A stretch of 59,617 nt of DNA from Gammaproteobacteria bacterium. GTDB lineage: Bacteria > Pseudomonadota > Gammaproteobacteria > SZUA-152. A program made the translations under genes and the position numbers. Numbering within the stretch: position 1 is the first letter of the stretch; every line of letters begins with the position of its first letter. Location: contig JAKIUF010000027.1 in the NCBI GenBank assembly GCA_021647705.1, positions 1 through 59,617 on the forward strand, written 5' to 3'. Below, piece by piece: positions 8,979 through 11,845 of the stretch. Under the pieces are notes generated by a model that did no database searches, was not told the origin of the DNA, and saw only the letters and a program-made list of their open reading frames with translations.

Positions 8979-10247
<1,269 letters not shown>

Positions 10248-10257
10248 CTAACGTCGT

Positions 10258-10560
10258 TTATTTAGCCTTTGCTTTTTTCTTCCTGGCCTTCTTTTTGCCT
10301 GTTTTTTTCTTAGCGACCTTTTTCTTGGTTGCTTTTTTCTTTGATGCTTTCTTCTTCACAGCCTTTTTCTTGACTGATTTTTTCTTTCTACCCTTCTTTT
10401 TGACGACTTTTTTCTTAGCGACCTTTTTCTTTGACGCTTTTTTCTTTACAGCCTTTTTCTTAGCTGATTTTTTTCTCACGGCCTTTTTCTTAGCTGTGGT
10501 TTTCTTTTTAACGACCTTCTTTTTGGCCGCATTCTTTCGAGCTTTCTTTTTCACCGCCAT
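10258..10560 (-). CDS. internal in-frame product: free histone-H1-like protein (100 aa)
   Basis: Within the adk fusion frame an ATG at 10560 gives MAVKKKARKNAAKKKVVKKK..., a complete small H1-like basic protein. It is preceded by AAGGAGG with 8 nt spacing, stronger than most ribosome sites in this window. In other bacteria such proteins are separate genes that condense or bind nucleic acid. I infer that both a fusion and a free form may be made. The alternative is that adk once ended before this point and lost its stop, joining two adjacent genes. Confidence 0.65.
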   Translation of the reverse strand: MAVKKKARKNAAKKKVVKKKTTAKKKAVRKKSAKKKAVKKKASKKKVAKKKVVKKKGRKKKSVKKKAVKKKASKKKATKKKVAKKKTGKKKARKKKAKAK

Positions 10561-11391
10561 GGTTGTTGCCTCCTTAATGGCACCGCTGCTTGATTGTAAT
10601 GGTGGTACTTCTGGGTTTGTTTCGGTTGTGTTCAATAGTTCTTTAGCTTTTTGCTCTAATTTAGTTGTTTTTTCAAAAGTTTCTACCTTTGAGGGTGGAG
10701 ATTTAGGTGTTTTTTTCAGTCTCACTATTTCCAGGTTACTTAATGTTGATTGCTCTATTGCTTTGCATAAACGGGCAAAGATTCTATCAATTTCATCGCT
10801 TCCATCTATGCTCGTCAATTTTCCCTGTATCTGATAATGCCTGACCATGGGCTCGGTTTGCATTTCAAACACACGCAAACGGTTGCTGATGGTGTCTTCA
10901 TTATCGTCTGCACGATGATGCAGCGTGCCACCGCATAAATCACAGTGGCCGTCCATTTTTGGCGGAGATGTATAAATGTTGTACATCTGTCCGCAGGATT
11001 TACAGGTACGTCGTCCTGCAATACGTTGTATCAGCAGGTCAAAGTCCACGTTAATCAGGATGGCGGATTGTAACGGACGACCCATGCGATTCAAAATGGT
11101 ATCGAGCGCCGCTGCCTGAGGTAAGTTTCGTGGGAACCCGTCAAGAATGAAGCCTTTTTGTGTGTCGTTGTCGTTTAATCGCTCTTCCATCATGCCCAGT
11201 ACGATTGGATCAGATACCAGCTGGCCTGCGTCCATTGCGGCTTTGGCCTCTAATCCAAGTGGTGTTTGTGCAGCGACCGCAGCACGTAGCAGATCACCGG
11301 TGGAAATCTGCGGAACCCCGTACTTGGCAACTAATTTTTTTGCTTGTGTGCCCTTTCCGGACCCAGGTGCGCCGATCAGTACGATCCTCAA
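10258..11391 (-). CDS. adk: adenylate kinase fused to a lysine-rich histone-H1-like tail
   Basis: Residues 1-~217 are adenylate kinase (ATP+AMP to 2 ADP): P-loop GAPGSGKGTQ, NMP-binding STGDLLRAAV, DGFPRNLPQA, and a LID with Cys130, Cys133, Cys150 and Cys153, i.e. a zinc-type LID that is uncommon in gammaproteobacteria. Residues ~218-277 are a polar linker. Residues 278-377 are almost entirely Lys/Ala/Val repeats of the AKKKVVKKK kind, as in bacterial histone H1-like proteins. The start is TTG at 11391, behind GGGAGG at 8 nt. The frame is open throughout. The tail could bind DNA or RNA. An internal ribosome site (next entry) allows the tail to be made alone. Confidence 0.85.
   Translation of the reverse strand: MRIVLIGAPGSGKGTQAKKLVAKYGVPQISTGDLLRAAVAAQTPLGLEAKAAMDAGQLVSDPIVLGMMEERLNDNDTQKGFILDGFPRNLPQAAALDTILNRMGRPLQSAILINVDFDLLIQRIAGRRTCKSCGQMYNIYTSPPKMDGHCDLCGGTLHHRADDNEDTISNRLRVFEMQTEPMVRHYQIQGKLTSIDGSDEIDRIFARLCKAIEQSTLSNLEIVRLKKTPKSPPSKVETFEKTTKLEQKAKELLNTTETNPEVPPLQSSSGAIKEATTMAVKKKARKNAAKKKVVKKKTTAKKKAVRKKSAKKKAVKKKASKKKVAKKKVVKKKGRKKKSVKKKAVKKKASKKKATKKKVAKKKTGKKKARKKKAKAK
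10569..10574 (-). promoter_or_regulatory. internal Shine-Dalgarno AGGAGG
   Basis: AGGAGG on the minus strand, 8 nt before the internal ATG at 10560. It decides the start of the free H1-like product. Within the fusion it encodes a Lys-Glu-Ala stretch in the linker. Confidence 0.75.
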
Positions 11392-11845
11392 CTCGGCAGC
11401 CTCCCTCTATTATATAAGCTGGCTGTATTTGTTAATAGTGACTTCAATGCACGCTCCTACTATGGACGGCATGTTAAGCAAAATTACAGCAAACCATCCT
11501 TTGCAGCTCGTTATCAAAATGCGACAGAATACGAACGACAATAGTACATTCATTCACGTTCGCGCTAAACCTACTCTTAAGCTATTGGGTAAGTCAATAG
11601 TTTGTGCAATGAATTTTACTGTTAATGCAGTATGTTATCGGTGTATTTTTCAAGGTAAGCAATACTGATGGGTCTTCATCGCTGTGCTGTGCTCAGTCTA
11701 TGAAAATGAGAGGTGATGGTTTTGATACTGTATTTATAGTCTGAAAACAAACATGATGGATATACTGGCTTTGATTTATGACAATATCCGGACTGTTATT
11801 TTATGTGTTGATGAGAGGGTTAATGCACTTTGGGAGATAAATGAC
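11392..11845. other. intergenic region between divergent adk and pfp
   Basis: About 450 bp with no convincing gene. On the minus strand TATAAT (11414-11409) lies just upstream of the adk ribosome site, perhaps too close to be the adk promoter. Short open frames here have no codon pattern or motif that I trust. Confidence 0.4.

Follow-up and report, generated by a model that had tools for sequence, protein, structure and literature searches.

A single gene on the minus strand of the window (the whole 59,617-nucleotide stretch of DNA analysed here), at positions 10258-11391, probably encodes two nested, in-frame products that are both under selection: an adenylate kinase tethered by its tail, and a free, histone H1-like polycation that corresponds to this tail. 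That one gene could give these two products had been proposed in an earlier note on the same DNA, and comparison with relatives, in which the fusion is open and an internal Shine-Dalgarno sequence (SD) and ATG are conserved at the nucleotide level, lent this idea good support.

The open reading frame encodes a protein of 377 amino acids and starts at a TTG codon, with GGGAGG (11400..11405, minus strand), the putative SD of the kinase start, 8 nt upstream. Residues ~1-214 (10753..11391) were identified as an adenylate kinase (Adk) by NF001380 (286.4 bits; cut-off 251), TIGR01351 (245.8 bits; cut-off 168) and matches to both Pfam ADK and ADK_lid. This domain also passed the tests for the zinc-lid type, with a profile score above the curated cut-off and a CxxC...CxxC pattern in the LID (C130, C133, C150, and C153; 10933..11004). 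P-loop residues were invariant in an alignment of 13 sequences, and the encoded enzyme is predicted to phosphorylate AMP. AlphaFold pLDDT values, by block, lay at 87-95 for residues 1-210 and fell below 50 for residues 253-377. A second adenylate kinase of the same genome, encoded on another contig, is tail-less.

As the earlier note had described, the kinase frame continues without a stop into a lysine-rich tail of 100 amino acids. The tail starts at Met278 (MAVKKKARK...; 10258..10560 including the stop codon), and a linker of low conservation lies between it and the kinase (residues 214-277; 10561..10752). It consists of 56% Lys and carries a net charge of +60. The reported AGGAGG at 8 nt from an in-frame ATG was likewise found at the kinase-tail junction, as AAGGAGG (10575-10569, minus strand) followed after 8 nt by ATG (10560-10558). 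A single GGATCACCTCCTT, which was taken to be the 3' end of the 16S rRNA, is present in the window's genome. Matches of the tail to NF038053 (23.6 bits; cut-off 80) and HC2 (10.1 bits; cut-off 40) were both far below the cut-offs; the tail fits H1-like traits in being Lys-rich, strongly basic and predicted to be disordered. When it was used as a query against its own genome with E values up to 10, only the same place and two shifted readings were retrieved, in a type of search by which low-complexity relatives can be missed. The gene is followed by a hairpin and a T-rich stretch that resemble an intrinsic terminator (10152..10179, minus strand; 12 pairs, 8 of them GC), as judged by a match to the consensus.

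The order examined consists of one family, represented by 24 genomes. The kinase-tail junction could be read in 19 of these and was open in all 19, which indicated that the fusion is not a local accident. A read error or local mutation at the junction was thereby ruled out, and the refuting condition named in the earlier note, a stop that separates the kinase from the tail in its relatives, was looked for and absent from every readable family member. The five other junctions were cut off or not found: an N-terminal piece lay at a contig end in G001, the tail lay upstream of hemB at a contig start in G015, the locus was cut short with a partial hemB match in G020, and G006 and G008 gave no hemB match either. 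In G013, the tail appeared to be spread over two contigs. Match rows flagged for stops were inspected in part: the flagged stop of G014 (L013) was the end of the tail, L220 and L221 were tailed Adks of 348 and 312 amino acids, and L222 and L223 were short.

In the 19 relatives, the linker, counted from residue 210 to the internal Met, measured 49-83 residues, with length changes that were all in frame. Its pN/pS ratio was 0.52-0.77, only mildly below 1, as compared to 0.10-0.20 for the kinase (three groups, comprising 16 of the 19 relatives). Since no stop has entered this linker, selection appears to have kept the long form too.

One relative (L017, from G021) has lost the second lid Cys (CSSG), and its zinc site may be broken. 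The kinase start was TTG in 9 of 9 members of the window's genus that were read (11389-11391 in the window; relatives L003-L011), and ATG in 10 of 10 from the sister genera. The internal start was ATG in every case. The genus with the TTG kinase start may favour the short product.

Conservation at the junction was examined at the protein and the nucleotide level. All 19 readable relatives shared the motif K-E-[A/T]-x-x-M-[A/T], in which the middle residues varied (ATT, ART, AKT, TRT, and TKI) and the residue after the internal Met was Ala or Thr throughout; these two residues are common after Met at protein N-termini. The underlying DNA was AAGGAG-9 nt-ATG in 17 relatives and had the weaker AAGGAA instead in the other two, with identical spacing in all. 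The Lys codon of the motif was AAG in 19/19, as compared to 120/336 in the rest of the kinase and linker, and the Glu codon was GAG in 17/19, as compared to 71/294; five other invariant Glu columns all preferred GAA (11 to 18 of 19). On the kinase tree, zero synonymous changes were needed for the Lys column and a single one for the Glu column, while among 38 other invariant two-fold columns none showed zero changes and four showed a single change. In gap-free, ATG-anchored comparison, the mean fraction of the majority base was 0.98 at -15..-10 (the SD) and 0.95 at -3..+2; eight of the ten upstream 6-nt blocks (-75 to -16) scored 0.53-0.64 and the other two 0.71 and 0.82. Synonymous divergence of the five junction codons was low in two groups (0.094 vs 0.338 for the kinase, and 0.140 vs 0.786) and not in the third (0.457 vs 0.335), the latter result counting against selection on the site.

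Short conserved patches were also observed upstream of the SD, from -36 to -30 and from -21 to -18 before the internal ATG, and two linker Glu codons were GAA in 18 of 19 relatives each; an internal start does not account for these features.

In the kinase parts of 116 Adk reading frames, 509 in-frame ATGs were examined, 103 of these ATGs being from the family, and none was preceded by an SD match of at least 6 nt. This control may understate chance, as it draws on kinase codons and not on Lys-rich linkers. Because Lys and Glu coding is A-rich, SD-like words arise more easily in such regions, and the fairer chance rate is that of tails outside the family, in which 3 of 70 in-frame ATGs (74 loci) had an SD match of 6, vs 17 of 19 at one fixed place in the family. 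Local RNA folding over the internal start was no stronger than in shuffled sequences (z 0.02). A promoter scan found no promoter-like site in the linker and a single one in the kinase part, as compared to 2.9 expected in shuffles of the whole stretch. In view of the conserved spacing of SD and ATG, the codon choice and the conserved footprint, these comparisons argued, on balance, for selection on the internal SD-ATG as a ribosome start.

When 370 genomes were drawn from the class, a close relative was present in 141, part of which were fetched. Out of 127 loci considered, 11 could not be parsed by a first motif and five of these were recovered, yielding 121 parsed loci (L047, which is not an Adk, and L103, L106, L116, L133, and L142 were left out). 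With 'tailed' defined as a frame of more than 275 amino acids, 93 loci were tailed (19 from the family and 74 others) and 28 tail-less. Tails contained at least 20% Lys in 85 of 88 tailed loci, the exceptions being L066, L097, and L111. L036 and L095 seem to represent one and the same contig, so that the tree contains 73 distinct kinase rows for the 74 tailed loci outside the family. The four-Cys lid, which the earlier note had correctly recognized in the window's Adk, turned out, contrary to what that note had supposed, not to be uncommon: it was present in 18/19 family members, in 74/74 other tailed loci and in 21/28 tail-less loci.

On the kinase tree, the family formed one clade (support 96/97), and its nearest row, L064, which joined it at 91/94, is tailed and lacks an SD-ATG at the junction; the bootstrap of this tree had not settled. 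Of the 74 other tailed loci, 35 contained no ATG after residue 215, and in three (L040, L084, and L113) an ATG was preceded by an SD match of 6. Conservation of the SD-ATG at the junction, which the earlier note had proposed to check, held within the family and did not extend to these 74 loci. Because the other tailed Adks of the clade have no conserved start, the putative internal start arose inside an older fusion; judged from these sequences, the fusion in this clade is older than the internal start. In L113 and L084, which belong to another family, an AAGGAG-ATG was observed inside the tail (at residues 327 and 343, respectively), possibly representing an independent internal start.

Tailed Adks are also known from the PRK13808 (NF010381) group, which presumably represents Bradyrhizobium and its kin. 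The window's protein is not a member of this group (183.3 bits; cut-off 426). Like the window's Adk, PRK13808 Adks (8 loci, 284-309 amino acids) carry a C-terminal, Lys/Ala-rich tail of ~100 residues; unlike it, they had no lid cysteines in the stretch seen, and no in-frame ATG was found after residue 185 in any of the eight. With a tail and neither of these features, they make more than one origin of Lys tails on Adk probable.

Adk and an H1-like protein were also found as products of separate genes. Among the 28 short loci of the first set, a Lys-rich frame occurred 238 nt (L044), 606 nt (L045), and 1321 nt (L043) past the adk stop; the stretch available for this search was short in L028 (9 nt), L029 (792 nt), and L031 (1171 nt). 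Since L043-L045 had been fetched through Lys-rich seeds, they are a biased sample of the frequency of this layout. In a control set of 20 loci fetched without such seeds, 19 were parsed and two had a Lys-rich frame just past adk: L214, with an 89-residue H1-like protein whose ATG lies 113 nt past the adk stop and is preceded by AAGGGGGA, and L217, with a frame of 45 amino acids from the first Met. Free H1-like genes that follow a tail-less adk and share its strand lie at L044:4931-5266, L045:7270-8925, L043:7967-8950, and in L214. A further 20 loci of the class, outside the 121 and outside the tree, comprised two tailed and 18 short ones, most of the latter zinc-lid; a Lys-rich frame after adk was found in none of these 18, L235 having 355 nt of searchable sequence. 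The side-by-side arrangement resembles the window in joining Adk and H1-like protein on one strand and differs from it in consisting of two genes with a stop between. It was seen only beside five Adks outside the tailed clade, which had no lid cysteines in the four cases where the lid was seen, and not after tail-less zinc-lid loci with enough sequence. As judged from these loci, Adk and H1-like protein thus meet in three ways: as neighbours, as a fusion, and as a fusion with a nested start. The side-by-side genes of other lineages provide a precedent for the joint making of the two proteins.

These observations bear on the alternatives to a nested gene. The tail could be a mere C-terminal appendage of the kinase and the SD-ATG the fading relic of a once separate H1-like gene, from which no product is made. 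Such an origin would fit the tail N-termini (MAVKKK, MAAKPK, and MTAKKK), which resemble gene starts, the occurrence of H1-like stretches on DksA, NusB, and topoisomerase I in these genomes, and the separate H1-like genes directly after adk in a few other lineages. However, these separate genes were seen only beside Adks outside the tailed clade, the junction Lys codon has remained unchanged throughout the family despite a diverged linker, and the nesting of the family among tailed outgroups without a conserved start would require repeated loss of the relic, so that this explanation is unlikely. Conservation of KE[AT]xxM[AT] as a peptide, for example as a protease site that frees the tail after translation, would agree with its presence in all 19 relatives and would likewise yield a free tail, but it leaves the fixed use of the less-used codons AAG and GAG unexplained and sits poorly with the variable middle residues; it is considered quite improbable. 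Internal SD-like words before A-rich codons are known stimulators of frameshifting, as in dnaX, and the tail is A-rich, so that the SD-like word, instead of being a start, could make ribosomes pause or shift frame between kinase and tail. The ATG at fixed spacing and the conserved Ala/Thr second codon argue against this, as do the absence of a single conserved slippery heptamer from the downstream DNA (e.g., GCG GTG AAA AAG; ACG GCA AAG AAG) and the position of the first A-run behind the SD of the window's gene, which starts 17 nt past it, leaving a pause or frameshift element with barely any likelihood.

The remaining alternative concerns the partner of the tail, which could tether the kinase to polyphosphate (polyP) and thereby aid polyP-AMP phosphotransfer. 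According to PMC9239181, the histone H1-like protein AlgP is found on polyP granules, requires its Lys-rich C-terminus for granule spacing and, as a fragment, binds DNA. The gene neighbourhood is compatible with a polyP tether, as the gene sits between hemB and a divergently oriented gene for diphosphate-fructose-6-phosphate phosphotransferase, a PPi-type phosphofructokinase, with a pyrophosphatase nearby. A PPK2 match was found in five of the 12 genomes of the genus, including the window's own, but PPK1 in none of the 12 (as compared to 8 of 12 genomes in the rest of the family). Moreover, four genomes that are 93-99% complete (G002, G005, G010, and G011) had neither PPK1 nor PPK2 and keep both the tail and the internal start, which indicated that polyP is not a general partner. 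Polyphosphate binding by the tail is therefore disfavoured, and a polyP tether as the explanation of the locus has a very low probability. Within the family, DksA also carries an H1-like stretch at its N-terminus, and NusB and topoisomerase I each carry one at the C-terminus (L155, L146, L149, and L157); as these proteins are partners of RNA polymerase, RNA or DNA, a nucleic-acid partner is favoured. In accordance with its composition, the tail most likely binds nucleic acid, as nucleoid DNA and/or RNA. At L145:856-1713, an N-terminal stretch that resembles HC2 (44.7 bits; cut-off 40) is joined to a possible AP2-type domain, which scored below its cut-off.

In-frame internal starts that give a C-terminal product are an already established kind of mechanism, and phage endolysins reportedly use them. 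In PMC11899642, Cas11b within cas8b is described as a separate C-terminal protein made from an internal in-frame Met, as is predicted for the window's gene; Cas11b is a CRISPR subunit of an archaeon whose product was demonstrated, whereas the window's candidate is a putative H1-like polycation within a kinase gene, deduced from sequence. AlgP, PhaF, and HC2 resemble the window's tail in being disordered, Lys/Ala-rich and highly positively charged (PMC9239181), and differ in having no nucleotide kinase fused to them. In other gammaproteobacterial families, tailed zinc-lid Adks share the kinase clade and the kind of tail (74 loci) and differ in having no conserved SD-ATG at the junction. The earlier note had supposed that a link between such an enzyme and an H1-like protein was undescribed. 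No paper on an Adk with an H1-like tail, or on coupling of the two, was found in the open-licence literature, which leaves out most subscription journals; the tails of PRK13808 Adks are, on the other hand, known to annotation.

The reading of the locus as one gene with two nested products would entail the following scheme. Ribosomes that start at the TTG (ATG in the sister genera) would make a zinc-lid adenylate kinase with a disordered lysine polycation as its C-terminus, and ribosomes that start at the internal AAGGAG-ATG would yield just the polycation, a small H1-like protein. The fusion would have come first; the family's ancestor would then have gained the internal start, which selection would have maintained. 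By binding nucleic acid, the tail of the long form would keep some of the second adenylate kinase of the cell at this partner; the short form would be a free H1-like protein. More tentatively, and with appreciable doubt, the family may make its free H1-like protein, the only one found in the window's genome, from the nested start in its second adk. A single mRNA, through the balance between its two ribosome sites, would then set how much of the energy-charge enzyme is supplied, how it is tethered to nucleoid or RNA, and how much free chromatin-binding protein there is.

Sequence comparison makes the locus a clean example of an in-frame nested gene that selection appears to maintain within a core metabolic enzyme. 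Lys tails are a widespread feature of adenylate kinases and are present in no fewer than two separate Adk families, so that the reason for tethering this enzyme needs an explanation. If the two products are real, the family would couple adenylate kinase to an H1-like protein.
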